The translations under genes were made by a program, and so were the position numbers. DNA of 64,000 bases from the NCBI GenBank assembly GCA_018268355.1, contig JAFDWR010000004.1, forward strand, positions 496,404 to 560,403, written 5' to 3'. Each line of letters begins with the position of its first letter. Position 1 is the stretch's first letter. Below the pieces are notes generated by a model. That model was not told the DNA's origin and searched no databases. It saw only the letters and a program-made list of their open reading frames with translations. The DNA comes from Armatimonadota bacterium. GTDB taxonomy: Bacteria > Armatimonadota > Fimbriimonadia > Fimbriimonadales > Fimbriimonadaceae. Shown in pieces: positions 15,551-29,666 of the stretch.

Positions 15551-16033
15551 TTAGGCTGCCGCGAGGCTGACGCGCTGTCGCAGGCTCACGCTCAGTTCGA
15601 AGACGCCAAGGTCCGGCAGTTCGAGCGGAATCTGGATCGCAGGAATGTCGGTCGTGCTGATCGACACGTTAAGCCCGCGAATGATCGTCGGCGGCGTGAT
15701 GTCGCACTCGTAGCCGAGCGAAGCAAGCCGCGCCGAGCTGTGACCAGAAACCATGTTCCCGAGCTCAGCAATCGCGGAGGCGGCGAGCGCATCAAAGGTG
15801 ATGACGGGCTGGCCGAGCATCTTCGAGGCGATCTTGTCGGCGGTGATCATCGACATGCCGTAGACCACGATGCCTTCAAGCTGGCCGGTGAGGCCGCAGA
15901 CCACGTTGATCTGCTGCATCGTGTTCATCGAGGGCGAGACCTTGAGCTGTCCTCGCTCGGGAGTCATCCCGATGAGGGCCTCAAAAACACCCACCGCTGC
16001 CTCGGCAAACGGGGCAATGTATTCAACCTTCAT
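15551..16033 (-). CDS. cheX: Chemotaxis phosphatase CheX
   Basis: A 160-residue CheX-type protein. It contains the single active-site helix of this family, AIAELGNMVSGHSSARL (~89), with the Glu and Asn that remove phosphate from CheY-P, between GMSMITADKIASKMLG and the strand LNVSISTTDIP. CheX is a soluble CheY-P phosphatase. It is the last gene of the operon and follows cheY after 3 bases. Confidence 0.9.
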   Translation of the reverse strand: MKVEYIAPFAEAAVGVFEALIGMTPERGQLKVSPSMNTMQQINVVCGLTGQLEGIVVYGMSMITADKIASKMLGQPVITFDALAASAIAELGNMVSGHSSARLASLGYECDITPPTIIRGLNVSISTTDIPAIQIPLELPDLGVFELSVSLRQRVSLAAA

Positions 16034-16036
16034 GCG

Positions 16037-16402
16037 TTATGCAGCGAGCAATTTGCCCACAGCCTCCACCACACGGTCAGGCTGGAACGGTTTAACGATG
16101 AAGTCCTTGGCCCCCGCTTGAATCGCTTCAACCACCATGTTCTTCTGGCCCATCGCCGTGCACATGACGACGGTGGCCTCGGGATCAATCGACTTGATCT
16201 CCTTCAGCGCGGCGATTCCGTCCATCTCGGGCATCGTGATGTCCATGGTCACGAGGTCCGGCTTCAGCTGCTTGTACATTGCGACCGACTCGGCACCGTT
16301 TTGGGCTTCGCCGACCACTTCGTAGCCGTTCTGCGTGAGGATGTTCTTTAGCGTGACGCGCATGAAGAGCGCGTCATCGGTGATCAAGATGCGTTTCGCC
16401 AT
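16037..16402 (-). CDS. cheY: CheY-type response regulator
   Basis: A 121-residue stand-alone receiver domain: acidic pair Asp9/Asp10, phosphoacceptor Asp54 in VTMDITMPEMDG, the conserved Thr in VVMCTAMGQ and Lys in IVKPFQ. Phosphorylated by CheA, it would bind the motor or another output; dephosphorylation is expected from CheX and CheC in the same operon. The start overlaps the cheR end by 19 bases. No cheA is in the window. Confidence 0.95.
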   Translation of the reverse strand: MAKRILITDDALFMRVTLKNILTQNGYEVVGEAQNGAESVAMYKQLKPDLVTMDITMPEMDGIAALKEIKSIDPEATVVMCTAMGQKNMVVEAIQAGAKDFIVKPFQPDRVVEAVGKLLAA

Positions 16403-17202
16403 TGTTGCTGTTTTTCTCCCGAACTCGGTTTTTGGTAGAAGAAAGGCCAGGGTTGTTCATAGCCCATGTTTCGATAATCGAAGATCCTTTCCGTGCTACC
16501 GACAAAGAGCATTCCGCCCGGCCGCAAGGCCGCGAAGAATTTCTTATAAAGGTCATCTTTGGCAGGATCGGTGAAATAAATCACCACGTTTCTGCACATG
16601 ATGAGATCAAAATTGCCATCGAAGCGGTCGGCGAGCAGGTCTCCGCGCCGGAATCGAAGGTATTTCGAAAGCTGAGCGTTGGCCTTCCAGACCCCATCGA
16701 CTTCACGGAAATACTTGGCGCGAAGCTCGGCAGAGACGCCTCGCATCTCGTTGGCGCCAAACTCGCCGCGCTGGGCCTGCTCGAGGGCCGAGATGTCGAT
16801 GTCGGTGCCCAAGATGGAGTGGTTGCCCGGGAAGTGCTGGTCGAGCAGGATCGCAAGGGTATGAGCCTCGGCGCCAAGCGAGCATCCCGCGCTCCAGATC
16901 TTGAGCGAGCGGTTCACCTTCAGGAGCTCGGGCAGGACTCGCAACCGCATGTCATCCCACTTTTCGGGGTTACGGAAGAGCTCGGTGACGTTGATCGCCA
17001 TCTTGTCGAGGAACCAGCGCAGCTCCGCCTCGCTTGAACCCAAGAGGGTCCAAAACCTGTCGAGGGTGGGAATGCCCTTCGACTCCATCATGCTGACGAT
17101 GCGGCGGCGCATCTGGTCAGGCTTGTAGAGGTGCAAGTCGATGGCGGTCTTTTGCTTCAGCGAAGCATAGAAACGGTTCCAGGATGTCTCGTCAGGCTGC
17201 AT
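16384..17202 (-). CDS. cheR: Chemoreceptor methyltransferase CheR
   Basis: 272 residues: N-terminal helical CheR domain (KQKTAIDLHLYKPDQMRRR), then the SAM-dependent methyltransferase domain with KIWSAGCSLGAEAHTLA (~89; usual form SAGCSTGEEPYS), TDIDISALEQAQRG and DLIMCRNVVIYF. It methylates glutamates on chemoreceptors using S-adenosylmethionine. The ATG at 17202 overlaps the end of cheB by 11 bases; the longer upstream frame is read inside cheB and is not favoured. Confidence 0.93.
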   Translation of the reverse strand: MQPDETSWNRFYASLKQKTAIDLHLYKPDQMRRRIVSMMESKGIPTLDRFWTLLGSSEAELRWFLDKMAINVTELFRNPEKWDDMRLRVLPELLKVNRSLKIWSAGCSLGAEAHTLAILLDQHFPGNHSILGTDIDISALEQAQRGEFGANEMRGVSAELRAKYFREVDGVWKANAQLSKYLRFRRGDLLADRFDGNFDLIMCRNVVIYFTDPAKDDLYKKFFAALRPGGMLFVGSTERIFDYRNMGYEQPWPFFYQKPSSGEKQQQWRNAS

Positions 17203-18256
17203 GGGTCTTCCTTCCCGCAAGGGCGGCGGTGATTGCCATCGCCATGTCTTGAATCGGCACTTGCATGTCGCTTGCTCCCGCTTGGACGGCAGCGCGCGGC
17301 ATTCCATAGATCGTGCAGGTCGATTCGTGTTCGGTGAAAACGGTGCCACCGGCAGCCTTGATCTTGACTGCGCCTTCCGCGCCGTCTCGGCCCATTCCGG
17401 TGAGGATCACGCCGATGACCTTTCGGCCAAAGTGCTCGGCGGCGGATTCAAAGAGGTAGTCGGCGGCGGGGCGCACGCCGTGGACGGAGGGCTCCTCGTC
17501 GAGCTTGATCTGTCCGTTGCGGATCATGCGAAGGTGGAAGCCACCCGGCGCGACGAGCGCTTGTCCCGGCTGGAGCGAATCGCCCATCACAGCCTCGCGA
17601 CAAGGGACGGTTCCGATGCGATCCAACCGCGCGGCAAGGCTCTCGGTGAACCCGGCGGGCATGTGCTGGACAATGACGATGGGAGCGGGGAAGGCCTGGG
17701 GCAGGTTCGCCCACAGGGTGCCAAGCGCCTTCGGTCCACCGGTCGAGCTCGCAATCACGACGATGCGGTCGGATTTGACGAGCGTTGACGGGAGCGCGGT
17801 CGGCTTTGCCGGAGCTGGCGTGGCGGACCCAAGAAGCGGCTTGCGAACGCTCGCGATCTTGGCTTCCTTGGCCATCCGAACCTTGGCGAGCAGGTCGTCT
17901 TGAATCTGCCGAATCGCGGTGAAGCTGCCGTTCATCGGCTTGCCGATGACGTCATACGCGCCGATGTCGAGGCATTCCAGGGCGGTTGACGCGCCGCGAT
18001 GGGTGAGCGTCGAAACCATCAAGACGGGCATCGGGGTCTTCGCCATGATGCCGCGCAGAGCGTCGAGGCCCGACATCCTGGGCATCTCGACGTCAAGGGT
18101 CATGACATCGGGTCGAACGTCGGCCGCGATGGTGATCGCATCTTCGCCGTTCCGTCCGAGGGCAACAACCTCAATGTCCGGGGCGCTCTCCAGGATGTCC
18201 TTGAGGAGCTGACGGATCAGCGGGCTGTCGTCGATGATTGCTACGCGAATTTTCAT
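17192..18256 (-). CDS. cheB: Receptor methylesterase/deamidase CheB
   Basis: 354 residues: receiver domain (Asp9/Asp10, phosphoacceptor Asp55 in MTLDVEMPRMSG), a linker with Ala/Pro, and the esterase domain with catalytic Ser in ASSTGGPKAL, His in VQHMPAGFTESLA and Asp in LTGMGRDGAEG. It removes methyl groups from receptors and is activated by phosphorylation, opposing CheR, which is encoded next. It starts in a 4-base overlap with the HDOD gene. Confidence 0.95.
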   Translation of the reverse strand: MKIRVAIIDDSPLIRQLLKDILESAPDIEVVALGRNGEDAITIAADVRPDVMTLDVEMPRMSGLDALRGIMAKTPMPVLMVSTLTHRGASTALECLDIGAYDVIGKPMNGSFTAIRQIQDDLLAKVRMAKEAKIASVRKPLLGSATPAPAKPTALPSTLVKSDRIVVIASSTGGPKALGTLWANLPQAFPAPIVIVQHMPAGFTESLAARLDRIGTVPCREAVMGDSLQPGQALVAPGGFHLRMIRNGQIKLDEEPSVHGVRPAADYLFESAAEHFGRKVIGVILTGMGRDGAEGAVKIKAAGGTVFTEHESTCTIYGMPRAAVQAGASDMQVPIQDMAMAITAALAGRKTHAA

Positions 18257-19137
18257 GCCGCTTGTGCCTGGTCGGTGAACAGGGTTTGGCGGGCTTGGAA
18301 CTGGTCAATCCAGTCGGAGAGGATGCCATCGAAGTCGTCGTCGGTGAGCCCCAGTCGAGACCAGGCGTCGCCGTCAAACTCGATGCGCAGGCCCTCCGAT
18401 CCCAGGCCAATGCCCATGCACCGAGTCAAATAATCGGCACAATGCAGGCAGTCCAGCAGGGGATTTTGCGAGGTGGCCTCGCTTGGCGTGTGGCTGTATC
18501 GAATGGCTTCGCACAGCTCGTTGGGCAGTCCCCACATCTTCGTGAGTTGGTAGCCGACCTCGGCGTGGTGGAACCCAAAAAGCTCGAATTCGTGGTCAAT
18601 TGCGAGTGACTTATCGCCTCGAAGTGCCCCGACGAGATCAGCCGAGCCGTCGAACCAGATCGACATTGCGATCTTGCCGATGTCGGCAAGGAGGCCGCAG
18701 GTGAAAGCGGCATCGGGAGACGCCTTGCGCGATCGATCCGCGATCGTCTGCGCGAAGGTTGCCGTGGCATAGCTGAACTCCCAAAGGCCCGGCGAGGCGA
18801 GGTCAAACACCTTAAGGTCGCGGCAAAGCCAAGGGTAGGTCGAAGCGACCACCGCGAGACGGCGAACCGTCCGCATCCCGAGGATGACGACCGCCTCATT
18901 GACGTCAAAGACCTGCTTGCGGAGGGAATAGAACGAGCTGTTCGCGAGTCGAAGCACGCGCGCGGTCAGAGCGGGATCCTGTTGCAATAGGCGTCCGACC
19001 GATTGGGCGGTGCTTTCTTCGGCTTCGGTCTCCGAAATGACGGCGAGGACAGTGGACGAGACGACCGGAAGGTCCGTCGTCGTTTCAAGCAGCTGAGCCA
19101 GGTTCGGGCGGCCGGAAAACGACGTGATCGCGCTCAT
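18253..19137 (-). CDS. HDOD-domain signalling protein
   Basis: 294 residues with the HDOD pattern: DLPVVSSTVLAVISETEAEES near the start, LLQQDPALTARVLRLANSSFYS (~47), AVVILGMRTVRRLAV, and the HD-like FTCGLLADIGKIAMSIW where the catalytic His-Asp pair is lost, as in HDOD proteins generally. HDOD proteins are non-enzymatic regulators linked to signalling and motility. Four-base overlaps with cheD upstream and cheB downstream place it firmly inside the chemotaxis operon. Its partner is unknown. Confidence 0.9.
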   Translation of the reverse strand: MSAITSFSGRPNLAQLLETTTDLPVVSSTVLAVISETEAEESTAQSVGRLLQQDPALTARVLRLANSSFYSLRKQVFDVNEAVVILGMRTVRRLAVVASTYPWLCRDLKVFDLASPGLWEFSYATATFAQTIADRSRKASPDAAFTCGLLADIGKIAMSIWFDGSADLVGALRGDKSLAIDHEFELFGFHHAEVGYQLTKMWGLPNELCEAIRYSHTPSEATSQNPLLDCLHCADYLTRCMGIGLGSEGLRIEFDGDAWSRLGLTDDDFDGILSDWIDQFQARQTLFTDQAQAA

Positions 19138-19640
19138 GCGGCCCTCAGGTTGGTCAGGTTCTTCTCTCCCACGGAGAGGGTCTTGACGATGATGTCGCCG
19201 GTGTCGAGCTTGAAGGTGACGGTGCGACCCTGGTTGCCGCCGAGGTCTTCGGCCTTGCATCGCAGCCCTTGCTTCTTGATCGCGGCACGAACCGCGGCTC
19301 CGTTTCGCTCACCGACGTCGAGCTTGGGCGCGGCGCCGGTCGACGACTTGAAGACTTGGGCACCACCCGAGACGGCGAGGACGAGCCTACTCTTTCGAGC
19401 ACCGGCAGCCTCCATCTGGGCGATCAGGGCAGGCAAAGCGGTGTCGGCGAACTTGCCCGGCTTATCACCAGGCTCGCCGTTGAAAGCCTCTGGAAGCATC
19501 ACGTGGACCATGCCGCCGACCTTGGCCACGGGGTCCAAGGCGCAGATGCCTACGCAACTTCCGAGTCCGAGGCAAACCAGCGAGCCGGTTTCTTGGATGA
19601 CCTTGATCTCAGCCATTCCGACCAGCGTTGAGCCCGTCAT
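19134..19640 (-). CDS. cheD: Chemoreceptor glutamine deamidase CheD
   Basis: A 168-residue CheD. The catalytic Cys29 lies in LGLGSCVGICALDP and His46 in GGMVHVMLP; HVMLP and the later GGAQVFKSS and LGGNQGRTV are family hallmarks. In the Thermotoga enzyme a Thr six residues before the Cys completes the triad; here that position is Cys23. CheD deamidates receptor Gln residues and in CheC-containing species binds and activates CheC, the neighbouring gene. Its start overlaps the cheC stop by one base (TAATG). Confidence 0.93.
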   Translation of the reverse strand: MTGSTLVGMAEIKVIQETGSLVCLGLGSCVGICALDPVAKVGGMVHVMLPEAFNGEPGDKPGKFADTALPALIAQMEAAGARKSRLVLAVSGGAQVFKSSTGAAPKLDVGERNGAAVRAAIKKQGLRCKAEDLGGNQGRTVTFKLDTGDIIVKTLSVGEKNLTNLRAA

Positions 19641-20260
19641 TATGCCGCCTCCTGGATGCCGAGGCTGGCGAAAAGCGTTTGCAGGCTGCCGTCGGTCGGG
19701 AAGTAGATGAAGAAGCCTTCGATGTCGCCGGTCTCGTTCTGGATGCTTGTACGGACGCTCAAGGCGCTGAGGCCTGCAAGCTGCGCTTCGGCAAAGATTT
19801 GGTAGAGCACGGCGACGCCCATGTCGATGCTCAGGAAAGGCGGGCTTGCGTGGACCTTCAGTCCGGTCATGTCCGAAATCGCGTTGAGGAAGCCGGAGTC
19901 GACGATGTTGCCTAGTTCAAGCATCGCGGAGCTCGCGAGCTCGTCCACCGACGAGGGATCCTCGGGTGCGGTGCCGATCACAAGGTTCCAAAGGGCGACG
20001 GCGGAGGTCCAGGGCATCAACCAGCCCATCTGGCCGGTGAGGTCGCCTTCGACCGGCATCAGGATGCAGACCGCAACTTCCTCAGGGAATCCGACCAGCG
20101 CGGGGACATCGGTCAGCTCGACCTCGTCTGCGCTCGGTACGGTGACGTGGAACGTTTGCCCCGTCATCCCCGAAAGGGCGGTCGCCGCGTGACCGACGCC
20201 GATGTTTGATATCTCACGGATGACGGACATCGCCATCTCGCCAAAACTGCTTGCACCCAT
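19640..20260 (-). CDS. cheC: CheY-P phosphatase CheC
   Basis: 206 residues with two ExxN-type active-site helices: REISNIGVGHAATALSGMTG (~17) and ELGNIVDSGFLNAISDMTG (~117). CheC is a CheY-P phosphatase whose activity rises when bound by CheD, encoded next. This is the first gene of the operon. The ATG at 20260 has an AGGGAAG site 6 bases upstream; a TTG at 20266 is in frame but less likely. Confidence 0.93.
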   Translation of the reverse strand: MGASSFGEMAMSVIREISNIGVGHAATALSGMTGQTFHVTVPSADEVELTDVPALVGFPEEVAVCILMPVEGDLTGQMGWLMPWTSAVALWNLVIGTAPEDPSSVDELASSAMLELGNIVDSGFLNAISDMTGLKVHASPPFLSIDMGVAVLYQIFAEAQLAGLSALSVRTSIQNETGDIEGFFIYFPTDGSLQTLFASLGIQEAA

Positions 20261-20587
20261 GACCAACTTCCCTAACCCACTCTCTGGGGCACTTCAGAAG
20301 AAATGCACCTGTTCCCTAGCGGGGGAAATTCCACGAGGGGGAAGCGGCAAGACCAAGCAATCTTGCGATATCCCGCCACATAGGCCGTGAAGGCGGCATT
20401 TTATAAACTTTGAGTCGATTGTGAGGGTGTCCGCGTAATCACAGTTAGACCTGCAAAAAAGAGCAGGCATTGGCGGAACTACGGCAACGTCAACACAACC
20501 TCTCCTCCTCAGTAAGGGGCGTCCAAAATCGGGCGCCCTTTTTCTCAATCGCCTTTTTCTTGGGGGATTGGTACACTCGAAGGGCTC
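20261..20587. other. Intergenic region between cheC and accB-like gene
   Basis: A 327-base region without a convincing gene. It holds the cheC ribosome-binding site, a lower-GC part near 20398-20460, a small hairpin (20450-20454 with 20463-20467) and a plus-strand terminator at 20514-20543. The terminator lies 44 bases before the next gene and is not downstream of any plus-strand gene, so a short RNA or attenuated leader may lie here. I could not match it to a known riboswitch consensus. Confidence 0.5.
20514..20543 (+). terminator. Orphan terminator upstream of accB-like gene
   Basis: An 11-pair stem (20514-20524 with 20531-20541, including two G-U pairs), a 6-nt loop and a T run through 20543. 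Confidence 0.7.
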
Positions 20588-20995
20588 ATGGCCTCATTTG
20601 ATGCGGAAACGGTTCGGCATGCTCTCGAAACGGCTCGACGCCATTCGATTCACGAGGTTGTTCTCCAATCGGGAGATGCGTCGTTCCACGCCGTCCTCAA
20701 GCCGGTGAAGGCGAAGGCGCGTGCCAGTGCGGCCTCCGGTGGATCGGCGGCGACGTCCGAAGCACCCGCCGCGCCGACGAACCTGCCGCTGAAGTCCAAC
20801 GTCGTGGGCTACCTGCGACAGGTCCTCATCCAGCCCGGAGACGTGGTGGAGAAGGGTCAGAAGGTGGCCGTCGTTGAGGCACTGGGACTCGCCAACGAGG
20901 TGGGAGCCTCGGCGGCGGGCACGGTCGAAGAGGTCCTCGTCACGGTGGGCGATCCCGTTGAATTCAATCAGGTCCTCGCGAGGGTCAAGCCATGA
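20588..20995 (+). CDS. BCCP-like biotinyl-domain protein lacking the biotin Lys
   Basis: 135 residues arranged like the biotin carboxyl carrier protein AccB: an N-terminal helical segment, an Ala/Pro-rich linker (41-66) and a C-terminal biotinyl fold (VVGYLRQVLIQPGDVVEKGQ; SAAGTVEEVLVTVGDPVEF). In active carriers the hairpin reads EAMKM with a biotinylated Lys; here it reads EALGL, with Gly100 (codon GGA at 20885) in that position. It cannot be biotinylated at the normal site. It begins an overlapping run with accC, so a role in acetyl-CoA carboxylase assembly or control is likely. Plant BADC proteins are a known example of Lys-less BCCP relatives that restrain the enzyme. Confidence 0.88.
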   Translation: MASFDAETVRHALETARRHSIHEVVLQSGDASFHAVLKPVKAKARASAASGGSAATSEAPAAPTNLPLKSNVVGYLRQVLIQPGDVVEKGQKVAVVEALGLANEVGASAAGTVEEVLVTVGDPVEFNQVLARVKP

Positions 20996-21369
20996 TCGGC
21001 CGAACTCGCCAGGGCGACACGCTGATCGGCCTCCTCGTCACGATTGCGATCATCGCGATCCTGGCAGCGGTGTACTTCACGGGCAAGGGCACGGGCGAGA
21101 CCAAGGGCCGAAAGGACGGCATCGGTCGCACGATCATTGGCCGAAGCATCGCGGGGGCGAAGGACGATGTCTGTCGTAGCAACCTGGGCCAGGTTCGAGC
21201 CGCGATCCAAATCGCCCGCGCGAACGCGGACGATGCCCCTCCCGCCGACCTCAAGGAAACCCGTCTCGGCGATTCGTTTTATCGGTGTCCGCTCGGAAAA
21301 GAGCCTTACGTCTACAACCCAGAAACGGGCGAGGTGAAGTGCGTTCACCTCGGACATGAGAAGTACTGA
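20992..21369 (+). CDS. Type IV pilin-like protein
   Basis: 125 residues with an N-terminal prepilin signal: a short basic leader ending in Gly8, then DTLIGLLVTIAIIAILAAVY, the hydrophobic helix of type IV pilins and type II pseudopilins. Two features are unusual: the first mature residue would be Asp, and the conserved Glu at position 5 is Gly. The C-terminal part has three Cys (DVCRSNLGQ, YRCPLGK, VKCVH) and the segment CRSNLGQVRAAIQIA seen in many Gram-negative minor pseudopilins. It overlaps both neighbours (4 and 1 bases), which places a pilin-like gene inside an acetyl-CoA carboxylase operon. Confidence 0.82.
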   Translation: MIGRTRQGDTLIGLLVTIAIIAILAAVYFTGKGTGETKGRKDGIGRTIIGRSIAGAKDDVCRSNLGQVRAAIQIARANADDAPPADLKETRLGDSFYRCPLGKEPYVYNPETGEVKCVHLGHEKY

Positions 21370-22733
21370 TGCTGAAGAAAGTTCTCATTGCCAATCGAGG
21401 TGAAATAGCCTGTCGTGTCATCCGCGCCTGCCGCGAAATGGGGGTTGCCAGCGTGGCGATCTTCAGCGAGGCCGACCGCGAGAGCCTTCATGTGAAGCTC
21501 GCCGACGAGGCGATCTGCGTTGGGGCGGGCTCGAACCAGGACTCCTATCTCAACCTCGCCAACGTCCTCATGGCCTGTCAGATCAGCGGCGCAGAGGCGG
21601 TCCACCCGGGCTATGGCTACTTCAGCGAGCGCGCCAACTTTGCCGCCGCTCTCGATTCGCTTGGCATCAAGTTTATCGGCCCTCCCGTCGCCGCGATTGA
21701 GGCGATGGGCGACAAGGCAAGCGCGAAGCACGCGGCGGTGGCCTCGAACTGTCCGGTGGTGCCGGGTTCGGTGGGCTCGGTCGCGAACGAAGTCGAGGCA
21801 CTGAAGATCGCCGAGGAGATCGGCTTCCCCGTGCTGCTCAAGGCAGTGGCGGGTGGTGGCGGGCGCGGCATTCGCCGCGTGGATGACGCCGAGGACCTTG
21901 CCTCGCTCTTCAGCACCGCGAGTGCGGAGGCCCAGGCGAGCTTTGGTAGCGGCGAGATGCTGGTCGAGAAGTGCGTGGTCGAGCCGCGCCACGTCGAGAT
22001 TCAGGTCATCGGCGACCACCACGGCAACATGGTCTACCTCGGCGAGCGCGAGTGCTCGATCCAGAATCTCCGCCACCAAAAGCTGGTCGAAGAGGCGCCC
22101 TTTGCCGGCTTGCCCGACAGCGTTCGCCGATCGATGGGTGAGGCCGCGGTGCGGGTTGCCCAGAGCGTGGGCTATGCGAATGCGGGGACCGTCGAGTTCC
22201 TTGTGGACAAGGATTTCAACTACTACTTCCTGGAAATGAACACCCGACTCCAGGTCGAACACCCGGTCACCGAGCAGATCACCGGCGTGGACCTCGTCCA
22301 CCTCATGCTCAAGATCGCAAACGGCGAGAAGCTGCCGATTACCCAAGAGGACGTCCTGCTGAGCGGGCATTCGATCGAGGCGCGCATCACCGCGCAGGAT
22401 CCGAGCAAGGACTTCGCGCCGAGCACGGGCAAGATCACCAAGTGGTGCATGCCGATGGGGAACGGCGTCCGGATGGAGACCCACTGCTACGCCGGATTCA
22501 CGGTCAGCCCGTTTTATGACCCGATGATTGCCAAGCTCATCGTGACGGGCAAGACGCGCGATGAAGCCTGCGCCAAGCTTGCGGGAGCGCTTCGCGAGTT
22601 CGACGTGGAAGGGATTCAGACGAACATCCCGTTCCTGCGCGAGCTGGTCGACGACCCGCGCTACCGAGCGGGCGACTTCAGCACCGCCTTTGTCCCTCGA
22701 TTCCTTCAAGAAAAAGAGGACGCCACGCTTTGA
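21369..22733 (+). CDS. accC: Biotin carboxylase subunit of acetyl-CoA carboxylase
   Basis: 454 residues, normal length for AccC. ATP-grasp architecture: KVLIANRGEIACRVIRA at the start, AVHPGYGYFSERANFA, the glycine-rich loop KAVAGGGGRGIR (~158), EKCVVEPRHVEIQVIGD, ECSIQNLRHQK (variant of the usual ECSIQRRHQK) and FLEMNTRLQVEHPVTE. It carboxylates biotin on a carrier protein using ATP and bicarbonate as the first step of malonyl-CoA synthesis. Since the neighbouring carrier-like protein lacks the biotin Lys, a functional carrier must be encoded elsewhere. Confidence 0.96.
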   Translation: MLKKVLIANRGEIACRVIRACREMGVASVAIFSEADRESLHVKLADEAICVGAGSNQDSYLNLANVLMACQISGAEAVHPGYGYFSERANFAAALDSLGIKFIGPPVAAIEAMGDKASAKHAAVASNCPVVPGSVGSVANEVEALKIAEEIGFPVLLKAVAGGGGRGIRRVDDAEDLASLFSTASAEAQASFGSGEMLVEKCVVEPRHVEIQVIGDHHGNMVYLGERECSIQNLRHQKLVEEAPFAGLPDSVRRSMGEAAVRVAQSVGYANAGTVEFLVDKDFNYYFLEMNTRLQVEHPVTEQITGVDLVHLMLKIANGEKLPITQEDVLLSGHSIEARITAQDPSKDFAPSTGKITKWCMPMGNGVRMETHCYAGFTVSPFYDPMIAKLIVTGKTRDEACAKLAGALREFDVEGIQTNIPFLRELVDDPRYRAGDFSTAFVPRFLQEKEDATL

Positions 22734-23299
22734 GGTCGAGGCGCAAGTCGCGAGAGGCAGCCCTTTGCGTCTTGTATTCGCTCGACCTTCAGCGGGAGGG
22801 CGTGGACATCGACGAGGCGTCGGAGCTCGCCTTATCGGAGCTGACCCTTTCGCCCGACCAAGTGGCCTACACCCATCGGCTCATCAAGGGCGTGATGGGC
22901 GACCTCAGCGAAATCGACGAGACGATCAAGCGATTTTTGAACGACTACGACATCGACCGTGTGGCGGCGGTGGACCGAACCCTGCTTCGCATGGCGGTCT
23001 ATGAGCTGTATCACGAGCCGGGCCTTGCCCCCGCGATTTCGATCAACGAAGCGGTCGAGCTGGCCAAGAAGTATTCGACGGCGGCGAGCGGGAAGTTCGT
23101 CAACGGCGTGCTCGGCGCCCTGGTGAAGGAATCGCCCAAGGCGATCTGGGACCCTTCGACCGCGCCTGCCGAAACCGAAGTGGTTGAAGAACCCGAAGCG
23201 GCTCCCGAACCGGAGAACGAAGAGACGGTGGTGGAAGGCAGCGACGAAGGCCAACAGGCGATCCAGTTCGGCTGGAAGATTCGGACTGACGCTCCTTAG
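22730..23299 (+). CDS. nusB: Transcription antitermination factor NusB with acidic tail
   Basis: 189 residues. The first ~140 match NusB: RRKSREAALCVLYSLDL at the start, DRVAAVDRTLLRMAVYEL and the signature ISINEAVELAKKYSTAASGKFVNGVLG (shown in parts). NusB binds boxA RNA with S10 for rRNA antitermination. After residue ~143 there is an added Glu/Pro-rich, probably disordered tail. It starts with TTG overlapping the accC stop; an AAGAGGA sequence lies upstream. Confidence 0.93.
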   Translation: MRSRRKSREAALCVLYSLDLQREGVDIDEASELALSELTLSPDQVAYTHRLIKGVMGDLSEIDETIKRFLNDYDIDRVAAVDRTLLRMAVYELYHEPGLAPAISINEAVELAKKYSTAASGKFVNGVLGALVKESPKAIWDPSTAPAETEVVEEPEAAPEPENEETVVEGSDEGQQAIQFGWKIRTDAP

Positions 23300-25757: not shown

Positions 25758-28700
25758 ATGAGGTCATGGGTACGAACCACTCTCACCATCGTCGTTTGTT
25801 TTGCCTTGGTCCTGTCGCAGACCGCAGTTGCGATGGGCTCAGTTTCGTCGGCAATTGCCGCCTGGGCTGAGATTCAGCGACGAAAGCCCGCCAAGACTGA
25901 GACAGATCGGCCCACCCCCATTTTTAAGGGTGCGAACCCGCGCCGAGACGGGCGGCGCGCCTCCTGGTGGACGCCCAAGCTCCTGCGCGACCTGCGCGCC
26001 AACGAGCATCGAAACTGGCTGCGAGACGCGGAAGGGGCGGATCTCTATGCCTTCAGCAGCCTCGACAACCTCGTCGCGATGAGCTTCCAGACCGGTGGCG
26101 GTTCGGGCTCGGAGGGCGGCGGCCAGGGATCTGGCGAAGGTGGCTCGGGTTCCGGGGGATCGGGAACCACGGGCACGGGCGGCAGCGGCAGCGGCACGGG
26201 CGTCGGTGGTGGCGGTGGCGGTGGCGGCGGCGTGGGTTCGGCGGGCACCGGCATGACCGGCCTCACGAACACTAACACGGGCAACAAGCTCTCCGAACTC
26301 CCGATCGTGGGGTGGGGTGCGCGCGGCGACCTCAGCGTCGGCTTTGGCCTTGTCCACAACAGCAAGAACAACGTTGACGGCGAGTTTGGCTACGGCTGGG
26401 TCCACAGCTACGAGGTTCGGCTCGACTACACGCCGGGTTCTTCGGCGATCCTCCACATGCCGGACGGCCTCACGGTGCCCTTCACGGAGACCTCGGGCAC
26501 CTTCACGCCTGCACCTGGATTCGAAGCCGACCTGGTGAAGAACGGCGACGGCACCTTCTGCCTTACCTTCCGCGACAAGACGCGCTATTGGTTCTCGGCT
26601 CAGGGCTACCTGATGCTGGTCTTCGACCGATTCTGGAACGCGATCAGCCTCAACCGAAGCGTCTCGCAGCGGGTCACCTCGATTCAGTCGAACGACGGTC
26701 GCTACCTGGTCCTCAGCTACGACGCCGACGGCCACGTGTTCTCGGTCCTGGATTCCTCGGGCCGCGAATGGCGGTTCAACTACAACTCGGCGGGCGACCT
26801 CGCGAGTGTCGATTATCCGACGATCAACGGGACGAACCCGCGGCGCGAGTTCTCCTACAGCGCCGCGCACGACATCCTCACCGAGAAGGACTTTTCGGGC
26901 CGCATTTGGTCGTGGACCTATGACAGCCAGGAGCGGATGACCTCGGCGACCGACCCGGCGGGCCTCACCCGGACCTATGCCTATGGTTCGACCGCGACCA
27001 CGATCACCTTGCCCGGCGGGCAAACCGTGGTCGACAACTATTCCGACGGCCTCCTGGTCAGCCGGGTGGACCCGGCCGGGTTCTCGGACGCCTACACCTA
27101 TGACACCGGTCGGCGCGTGCTCACCCACACCGACAAGCGGGGAAAGGTTTGGACCTATACCTATGACACGCGCGGCAACCTGCTGACCGCGAAGGATCCG
27201 CTCAACCGGACGGTCACCACCACCTATAACACGGACGATCGCCCGGTCACCATCACTGACCCGAACGGCGCGGTGACCACGTTTAGCTATGGCTTCCACG
27301 GAGTGCTGACCTCGGCGACTGACCCGCTTGGGCGTGTCGTCACGACCTCGACTTACGACGCCCTTGGCCAGGTGACGAGTGTGACCGATGCCCTCGGCCG
27401 GACCTCGAGCTTCACTTATAACGGCTTTGGGAATGTGGTTTCGAGCACGAATCCGGCGGGCCAGACCACGACCGCGACCTATGACACCATGGGTCGGCCG
27501 CTGACGACCTCGGACGCGCTGGGCCGGACGACCACGGTGAGCTATGACGCTTGGGGTCGACCCGTTTCGACCGCGATGCCGGGCGGGATCACCAGTTCGC
27601 TCAGCCTTGACCTCGACGGTCGGACGCTTTCTGGCACGGACCCGCTGGGCCGGGTGGGCACCGTTTCGTATGACGCGGGTGGCCGTGTGGTCAGCTCTAC
27701 CAACGCGAAGGGCGAATCCTCGAGCCTGACCTATGACTCGAGTGGTCGGGTGGTCGCGTCGACGAATGCAAGGGGATTCTCGACGACCTACACCTACACG
27801 TCGCGCGGCCAGCTCGCGACGATGACCCTGCCCGATGGTGCGGTGGAGTCGTATGCCTACAACGCGGCGGGCCAGGCGACTGCCTTCACCAACCCGGTTG
27901 GTCAGACGATCCTCTACGCCTATGACGATGCCGGCCAGATGACCGCCATCGACTATCCCACCGGCACTGACACCACGTTTACCTATGACGCGGGCGGTCG
28001 GCGGACGTCGATGACCGATTCCACCGGAACGACGACCTGGACCTATAACGCGGCCTCCGAACTGGTGGGATTGAGCCAGCCGGGCTCGACCCTCAGCTAT
28101 GCCTATAACGCAGCGGGTCAGCGCACCGCGATGACGCGGGTGGGTACGGGGACGACCACGACGAGCTATGACGCCTTTGGGCGCGTGGCTTCGGTCACCA
28201 ACCCGTTTGGCGAGACAACCTCGCTGACCTATGACGGGCTCTCGCGCCCGGTGGTCAAGACGATGGCCAATGGCTTCACCGAGTCCATGGTCTATGACGC
28301 GGCCGGGCGCCCTTCGACCGTTCAATTGAAGGATGGGTCGGGGGCGGCAGTTCGCACCGAGACCTACACCTATGACCTCGCGGGGAACGTGCTTTCGGCG
28401 ACCCGAAACGGCACCGCGACGACCTACACCTACGACGCGATTGACCAGCTCCTGACCGAGTCGAAGCCGGGATATTCCGCCACGTACACCTATGACGCGA
28501 ACGGCAACCGCCTCTCGCGCACGGTGAATGGGTCGACCGACACCTACAGCTATGATGGCGGCGACAAGTTGCTTTCGGTCGTCTCGCCTTCGGGCACGCG
28601 GACCTATTCGTATGATGCGGCGGGTCGGACGACCGCGATTGCGGGCCCATCGGGCATTCGGACCTTCACCTACGACTTTGAGTCGCGGATCACGGGGATC

Positions 28701-29666
28701 ACGGGTCCGGGCTTCAGCGGCTCGTATGGCTACAACGGGTTCGACACCCGGGTCTCCAAGGTTGAGAATGGGGTCTCGCGGGCGTTTGTCCGCGATGGCT
28801 CGGGCGTTACTGCGCCTGTTCTGAGCGATGGCGCGGCGGACTATACGCCCGGGATTTCGGAGCGGCGAGGCGGGGTTTCGACCTTCTTCGCGTCGGTCCT
28901 GAAGAACTCGGACGTGCAGGTCGGCGCTTCGGCGGTGAGCGCGGAGCGGCAGTACGATGCGTTCGGCAATGTGCTCGGGTCTTCGGGGACTTGGAAGTCG
29001 CCGTTCGGCTACGCGGGTTCGTTTGGCTACCAAGAGGATGAGTCGGGCTACAAGCTGCTTGGCCACCGCACCTACGACCCGGACACGGGTCGCTTCCTGA
29101 CCCGCGACCCGGCGAAGGACGGCCGGAACTGGTACGCGTACTGTGGGAACAACCCGGTGACGAGCGCGGACCCGGCGGGGTTGGAGCCTCAACAGAGGGT
29201 CACCTACCTCTACAAGTTGGTGCGCCCTGACGGCTCCATCCTTAAGTTTGGCATTACCTACAACTTAGACACGAGATATTCGAGATTGATGCGCAAGTGG
29301 TGGGATTTTGAAATTGAGCCCATAATCTGGGATCATGACCGAGCTTTCATTCGATCCATGGAAAGAATGCTGGAAATGGAGATGCCAGGTGAGTGGAACT
29401 ATGTCAAATGGGCTGGCACTGCTGCAAATGCTCTAGGTAAAGCTTGTCTTGTTGTAGCAATTGTAGCCTTTGGGTACGATCTAATCAAAAATGGCCCCGA
29501 ATCAGCATTCAAGAATCTAGTTGGTTGGGGTTTAGTAGAAGGAGCACTCGCACGAGTCGAACAGTATCTTAACTCGACCTTAACACCATTCGTCAAGGAG
29601 AGCACCAGGGGAATTGAGAATTTTCGACTAGGAAGATGTGGGCTTACAAGGGAAGATATTGAATAG
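25758..29666 (+). CDS. Secreted RHS/YD-repeat polymorphic toxin with GIY-YIG-like tip
   Basis: 1302 residues. Signal peptide (TTLTIVVCFALVLSQTAVA), a Gly/Ser linker (about 112-168), then a long array of YD repeats (GR..TY.YD), which in this family build a hollow shell around a C-terminal toxin. The shell ends with the RHS core signature RTYDPDTGRFLTRDPAKDG and YCGNNPVTSADPAGL, closing at Leu1142. Residues 1143-1302 differ in composition (AT-rich DNA) and contain TYLYKL (1149-1154), LKFGIT (1162-1167), Arg1173 and Glu1202 in a spacing like GIY-YIG nucleases, then a hydrophobic helix (1228-1240). The tip is probably a DNA-cutting toxin used against competitors. The next gene overlaps its stop. 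No Tc/VgrG partner is nearby. Confidence 0.87.
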   Translation: MRSWVRTTLTIVVCFALVLSQTAVAMGSVSSAIAAWAEIQRRKPAKTETDRPTPIFKGANPRRDGRRASWWTPKLLRDLRANEHRNWLRDAEGADLYAFSSLDNLVAMSFQTGGGSGSEGGGQGSGEGGSGSGGSGTTGTGGSGSGTGVGGGGGGGGGVGSAGTGMTGLTNTNTGNKLSELPIVGWGARGDLSVGFGLVHNSKNNVDGEFGYGWVHSYEVRLDYTPGSSAILHMPDGLTVPFTETSGTFTPAPGFEADLVKNGDGTFCLTFRDKTRYWFSAQGYLMLVFDRFWNAISLNRSVSQRVTSIQSNDGRYLVLSYDADGHVFSVLDSSGREWRFNYNSAGDLASVDYPTINGTNPRREFSYSAAHDILTEKDFSGRIWSWTYDSQERMTSATDPAGLTRTYAYGSTATTITLPGGQTVVDNYSDGLLVSRVDPAGFSDAYTYDTGRRVLTHTDKRGKVWTYTYDTRGNLLTAKDPLNRTVTTTYNTDDRPVTITDPNGAVTTFSYGFHGVLTSATDPLGRVVTTSTYDALGQVTSVTDALGRTSSFTYNGFGNVVSSTNPAGQTTTATYDTMGRPLTTSDALGRTTTVSYDAWGRPVSTAMPGGITSSLSLDLDGRTLSGTDPLGRVGTVSYDAGGRVVSSTNAKGESSSLTYDSSGRVVASTNARGFSTTYTYTSRGQLATMTLPDGAVESYAYNAAGQATAFTNPVGQTILYAYDDAGQMTAIDYPTGTDTTFTYDAGGRRTSMTDSTGTTTWTYNAASELVGLSQPGSTLSYAYNAAGQRTAMTRVGTGTTTTSYDAFGRVASVTNPFGETTSLTYDGLSRPVVKTMANGFTESMVYDAAGRPSTVQLKDGSGAAVRTETYTYDLAGNVLSATRNGTATTYTYDAIDQLLTESKPGYSATYTYDANGNRLSRTVNGSTDTYSYDGGDKLLSVVSPSGTRTYSYDAAGRTTAIAGPSGIRTFTYDFESRITGITGPGFSGSYGYNGFDTRVSKVENGVSRAFVRDGSGVTAPVLSDGAADYTPGISERRGGVSTFFASVLKNSDVQVGASAVSAERQYDAFGNVLGSSGTWKSPFGYAGSFGYQEDESGYKLLGHRTYDPDTGRFLTRDPAKDGRNWYAYCGNNPVTSADPAGLEPQQRVTYLYKLVRPDGSILKFGITYNLDTRYSRLMRKWWDFEIEPIIWDHDRAFIRSMERMLEMEMPGEWNYVKWAGTAANALGKACLVVAIVAFGYDLIKNGPESAFKNLVGWGLVEGALARVEQYLNSTLTPFVKESTRGIENFRLGRCGLTREDIE

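Follow-up and report, generated by a model that had tools for sequence, protein, structure and literature searches.

The accB2-accC locus

The DNA analyzed here (the window, 64,000 nucleotides of an Armatimonadota genome) carries on its forward strand a run of overlapping genes (Table 1), the first of which encodes a paralog of the biotin carboxyl carrier protein (BCCP, or AccB) of acetyl-CoA carboxylase (ACC); we refer to this paralog as AccB2. The stop codon of accB2 overlaps the start of a short prepilin-like gene (ATGA at 20992-20995), the stop of that gene overlaps the ATG of accC at 21369, and accC in turn overlaps the nusB-like gene 3' of it. A sequence-only reading of this DNA had described accB2 as coupled to accC; the genes do overlap, but the coupling is not direct, as the prepilin-like gene intervenes. 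A scan for promoters and terminators returned nothing above chance.

Directly upstream, and divergent from the acc operon, lies a minus-strand run of genes (15551-20266) resembling chemotaxis proteins (response regulators and, by eye, CheB-, CheR- and CheC/CheD-like proteins). Downstream, on the strand of the operon, a gene at 25758-29666 encodes a protein of 1302 aa in which many YD/RHS-type repeats can be seen by eye.

Table 1. Genes and domains at the accB2-accC locus (positions in the window).
Feature	Position	Strand	Basis and remarks
accB2, Lys-less AccB/BCCP paralog (AccB2, BADC-like)	20588..20995	+	ATG start, 135 aa
AccB-type N-terminal domain of AccB2, residues about 6-37 (helix, two strands)	20602..20698	+	weak match, model and conserved residues
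Biotinyl-type beta-sandwich domain of AccB2, residues about 64-135	20777..20992	+	fold model
Degenerate biotinyl hairpin VEALGLANEV of AccB2	20873..20902	+	sequence
Short prepilin-like gene, 125 aa, overlapping accB2 and accC	20992..21369	+	Pfam N_methyl 3.6e-4, just under cut-off
accC, biotin carboxylase of acetyl-CoA carboxylase	21369..22733	+	PRK08591 1.5e-193; usual ATP-grasp and substrate motifs
nusB-like gene after accC	22730..23299	+	position and gene order; named from length and sequence character

A carrier fold without the biotinyl lysine

In AccB2 a low-complexity linker joins an AccB-like N-terminal segment to a biotinyl-type domain. Residues 96-105 read VEALGLANEV where a typical BCCP has EAMKMMNEI, and codon 100 (GGA, at 20885-20887) specifies Gly where the biotinylated Lys would stand; the protein has lysines at positions 38, 41, 43, 69, 89, 92 and 134, and the hairpin turn has none. 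The domain is nonetheless matched by Pfam Biotin_lipoyl (PF00364) at 6.3e-13, and the top match of the AccB2 profile in the whole PDB is the BCCP of Escherichia coli (4HR7_B, E 6.8e-16), whereas the BCCP model TIGR00531 matches residues 68-134 with 43.5 bits, below its curated cut-off of 115.2. Homology-based annotation would score genes of this kind as functional AccB.

An AlphaFold model built with 23 sequences (mean pLDDT 81) gave the biotinyl domain a pLDDT of 92-95 and kept the hairpin as two strands; it superimposes on E. coli BCCP (4HR7_G) with a Z score of 12.7 and 1.1 A over 70 residues. The profile alignment of the two proteins has a 5-residue gap at the thumb. The earlier statement that the rest of the fold is intact can thus be kept for the biotinyl sandwich, which is predicted confidently, but not for the thumb loop, which is 5-8 residues shorter. 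The N-terminus is collinear with that of E. coli BCCP, though the match is weak (profile domain 1, 7.8 bits); the model has a helix at residues 6-18 and strands at 23-28 and 31-36, and R10, H11, A12, L13, A16, F33 and A35 are invariant or nearly so among relatives. By analogy with E. coli AccB, this N-terminal domain is expected to be the part that binds AccC. AccB2 and E. coli AccB (4HR7, 1BDO) have in common the AccB-type N-terminus, the linker, the biotinyl beta-sandwich and a gene linked to accC; AccB2 differs in having neither the hairpin Lys nor the thumb, in the Glu of the EAMK motif being mostly not conserved, and in falling under the TIGR00531 cut-off.

Conservation and selection

A match to AccB2 is present in 83 of the 85 genomes of the window's family, and profile searches found the protein in 108 of the 113 genomes of the order. 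In an alignment of relatives the Gly at the Lys position is invariant; among 97 distinct Lys-less homologs from five families of the order, 96 have Gly there and one has Thr, so that the replacement of Lys by Gly100 in an accB-like reading frame, as first proposed, is borne out also by its conservation in relatives, which had been named as a check. The Asn three residues past the Lys position is retained in 78 of the 97, whereas just 18 have the Glu of EAMK; low retention of the Glu is what would be expected if biotin ligase need no longer recognize the hairpin. Pairwise dN/dS values for accB2 in eight close pairs were 0.04-0.13, and the gene is under purifying selection.

The window's genome is a 2.7-Mb draft (7 contigs, 97.7% complete), and most of the genomes compared are metagenome-assembled drafts. 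Lys codons are AAA and AAG; given the GGA at codon 100, two base changes are needed to turn Lys into Gly. Both a sequencing error at 20885 and a pseudogene are ruled out by the conservation of the Gly together with the dN/dS values, and with the near-constant presence of the gene in the family the chance that we are looking at an error or a decaying duplicate is vanishingly small.

A biotinylatable AccB is encoded elsewhere

The sequence-only reading had asked for a second accB with an EAMK motif, and one is present in the same genome: an ordinary AccB at C1:129696 (VGLIEAMKVFNEI) with the hairpin EAMKVFNEI. This rules out AccB2 as the sole BCCP of the genome, which also encodes a second intact carrier, of the PCC type (C3:154844, VLEAMKTQ), a biotin ligase (C2:314559), two biotin carboxylases and carboxyltransferase genes. 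An ordinary AccB at a separate locus was found in 104 of the 113 genomes of the order, and of 40 genomes drawn from elsewhere in the phylum 39 have two full-length AccB-like proteins, the remaining one (G198) showing a single protein; all 60 ordinary AccBs read have the Lys.

In three genomes of the order that have AccB2 (G035, G043 and G058; 89-96% complete) an ordinary AccB was not found; in two of these, the further carriers that were read are of the PCC type. The missing AccB is likely a gap in these draft assemblies; we count it against the reading of AccB2 as a subunit acting with AccC, developed below. Two reduced genomes of one genus in the window's family (G059 and G060, 1.5 Mb; loci L341 and L342) have neither AccB2 nor ordinary AccB, nor an accC-type carboxylase. 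Their one biotin carboxylase is of the second type: it stands at about 50-55% to its second-type counterpart in the window's genome, as against about 47% to AccC, and has the same enoyl-CoA hydratase-like neighbor as that counterpart. These absences point to a joint loss of AccB2, AccB and AccC in a single lineage.

Conserved gene order and the prepilin-like gene

The order accB2, prepilin-like gene, accC, nusB is found in nearly all loci of three families of the order (f1, f2 and f5) and in most loci of the phylum, and AccC lies near AccB2 in most of the phylum loci examined. Family f3 (loci L120-L126) keeps an AccB2, with the hairpin EVLGIPNEV, away from accC and without the prepilin-like gene. 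There AccB2 lies near cinA-like and membrane-protein genes, and the f3 neighborhoods examined gave no functional hint. The product of the prepilin-like gene has an N-terminal methylation-type segment and a C-terminal motif resembling CPxGxxYxYxPxTGxVxCPHPGHEKY, and most of the phylum has the gene at this position, between accB2 and accC.

Such an arrangement invites the thought that AccB2 and the prepilin-like protein act together in some membrane or surface process, the closeness of accB2 to accC being a matter of history only, given that accB2 and the prepilin-like gene overlap start to stop and occur as a conserved pair in most of the phylum. We think this quite improbable: accC comes next in most loci that have the pair, AccB2 persists in f3 without the prepilin-like gene, and by sequence the closest relatives of AccB2 are BCCPs. 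We give a similarly slim chance to the idea that AccB2 is no enzyme subunit but regulates acc expression by means of its AccB-type N-terminal domain. Autoregulation by AccB has been described in E. coli, and accB2 is the first gene of its operon and conserves an AccB-like N-terminus; but the degenerate biotinyl domain, including Gly100 and the Asn that follows, is tightly conserved as well, and accB2 is still conserved in f3 though unlinked from accC.

Evolutionary history of AccB2

Phylogenetic analysis of 116 sequences, from which the hairpin columns were excluded (144 usable columns), placed all of the accC-linked sequences together with the f3 homologs in one clade, with a support of 99/96 in an analysis whose bootstrap was not fully settled; this clade is apart from the ordinary AccB of Armatimonadota and from the AccB of other phyla. 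In the tree alignment 33 of the 34 AccB2 rows from the order have Gly at the Lys position, while among AccB2s from the rest of the phylum Lys is present in 22 of 40 rows, the others having G, R, T, S or D. Mapped on the tree, this requires seven changes between Lys and not-Lys (5-7 across bootstrap trees), at least three of them forced by the starred branches. Counts alone fit gain or loss; since Lys is present in ordinary AccB and in other phyla, loss is the likely direction. The accC-linked loci of other Armatimonadota (L161-L200), which are otherwise well conserved, show a variety of hairpins: ESMK, QAMG, ESMR, QSMD, EALT, KSFS and DALG.

The thumb, measured as the spacing from a conserved Gly to the Lys position, gives a second character. 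All 41 ordinary AccBs have a spacing of 33, and all 35 AccB2s of the order one of 25-28; in AccB2s from the rest of the phylum it ranges over 27-33, 6 of 40 having 33. Among the 22 AccB2s that keep Lys, 15 have a spacing of 27 or 28; the thumb is thus lost in most of them, and its loss need not wait for the loss of Lys.

Outside the phylum, a profile search of a sample of 24 genomes (11 of them cyanobacterial), which a divergent BADC could escape, yielded 30 carrier domains, all of which have the Lys (AMK or VMK), and each of the cyanobacteria sampled has one full-length AccB. A scan of named genomes found LG hairpins in Armatimonadota and EAMK in others, by patterns that favor LG hairpins or GEVVE stretches and so do not amount to an unbiased census. 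Fimbriimonas ginsengisoli and further Fimbriimonadaceae are among the named relatives, and the window probably comes from that family or from near it.

AccB2 as a probable non-biotinylated partner of AccC

We consider it probable that AccB2 is a non-biotinylated BCCP paralog belonging, as a subunit with a structural or regulatory role, to the biotin-carboxylase half of ACC. Its synthesis, from overlapping genes, would keep step with that of AccC; it would probably bind AccC by the AccB-type N-terminal domain, and would take carrier places in the AccC-AccB assembly. With Gly for Lys and the thumb loop missing it could not carry carboxybiotin, and the working carrier would be the ordinary AccB encoded elsewhere, so that the assembly would mix live and dead carriers. 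Such a mixed assembly may hold AccC together, as a glue, may limit the biotin arms that reach AccC, as a brake, or may do both; binding to AccC and any effect on its activity are argued here from analogy. In E. coli four BCCPs clamp two BC dimers (PMC11077971), and AccB2 could fill some of the BCCP places in an assembly of that type.

We count in favor of this AccC-subunit role the conserved Gly, the low dN/dS, the kept fold and the AccB-like N-terminus, then the gene order with accC, the ordinary AccB elsewhere, the separate clade and the thumb spacing, and also the low retention of the Glu and the joint absences in the two reduced genomes. Counted against it, besides the three genomes mentioned above, are the f3 accB2 genes, which are not near accC, and the intervening prepilin-like gene, which it leaves unexplained; moreover, with Lys kept in 22 of the 40 AccB2s from other lineages, a dead carrier is no general need of the enzyme.

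A narrower version, in which AccB2 is mainly a competitive brake that displaces biotinylated AccB from its sites on AccC and lowers carboxylase activity, seems to us rather unlikely, if clearly less so than the regulator or the prepilin partnership. It accords with the loss of both Lys and thumb while the AccB-like N-terminus is conserved, and with AccB2 being encoded in step with AccC and the live AccB apart; near-universal presence in the order and strong constraint, however, fit a constitutive structural part too.

Comparison with plant BADC and other non-catalytic subunits

The closest parallel is with the BADC proteins of plants (BADC1-3 in Arabidopsis), which, like AccB2, are BCCP relatives without the biotinylation motif; they occur in a multi-subunit ACC that also contains a normal BCCP (PMC11926652). 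Lys-less carrier paralogs have hitherto been treated as a plant-specific feature of ACC, and BADC subunits have been called "unique to the plant htACCase" (PMC11926652). Their role is disputed: they were at first regarded as inhibitors and later as the "glue" of the BC-BCCP subcomplex (PMC11926652), and have also been described as competing with BCCP for BC (PMC7712654). AccB2 is a BCCP homolog without the biotin motif in a genome that also has a normal BCCP and AccC, and on the features compared, taken for BADC from its published description, it most likely works like BADC. AccB2 differs in being bacterial, in being encoded by the first gene of an accC operon, in its shortened thumb and in belonging to an Armatimonadota clade with repeated loss of Lys; and binding to BC and BCCP has been shown for BADC, where for AccB2 it is argued by analogy.

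The sequence-only reading had raised the idea of a bacterial counterpart of BADC in the acc operon. As an analogy this stands, through the loss of Lys, the normal AccB, the co-occurrence with AccC and purifying selection, but the picture needs amending: the loss of Lys is order-wide and repeated, and the thumb is missing. Because Lys was lost repeatedly inside the Armatimonadota clade, the sequences suggest an origin separate from that of plant BADC. Somewhat more tentatively, and with less than even confidence, we propose that AccB2 arose as an operon-coupled second ACC carrier, that biotinylation was lost from it repeatedly, and that it has become fixed as a non-catalytic subunit alongside AccC. 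Armatimonadota would then have a BADC system of their own, independent in origin; the activity of the enzyme would be set by the live AccB, encoded separately, and AccB2 and the prepilin-like protein together might determine its assembly state or membrane location. We found no published description of a bacterial BADC counterpart in a literature survey of partial coverage, and earlier reports may exist. With several losses of Lys that look independent, and with close relatives that still bear it, a bacterial example would be a natural experiment on the keeping of a dead carrier; it would also provide simple proteins for reconstitution and give a view of how fatty acid synthesis is tuned in a phylum.

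The epsilon (AccE-type) subunit, a small protein of another kind, is not known to be a paralog of the carrier protein, which sets it apart from AccB2. The likeness lies in being non-catalytic: epsilon subunits of some bacterial acyl-CoA carboxylases help to assemble the holoenzyme without taking part in catalysis (PMC11926652).
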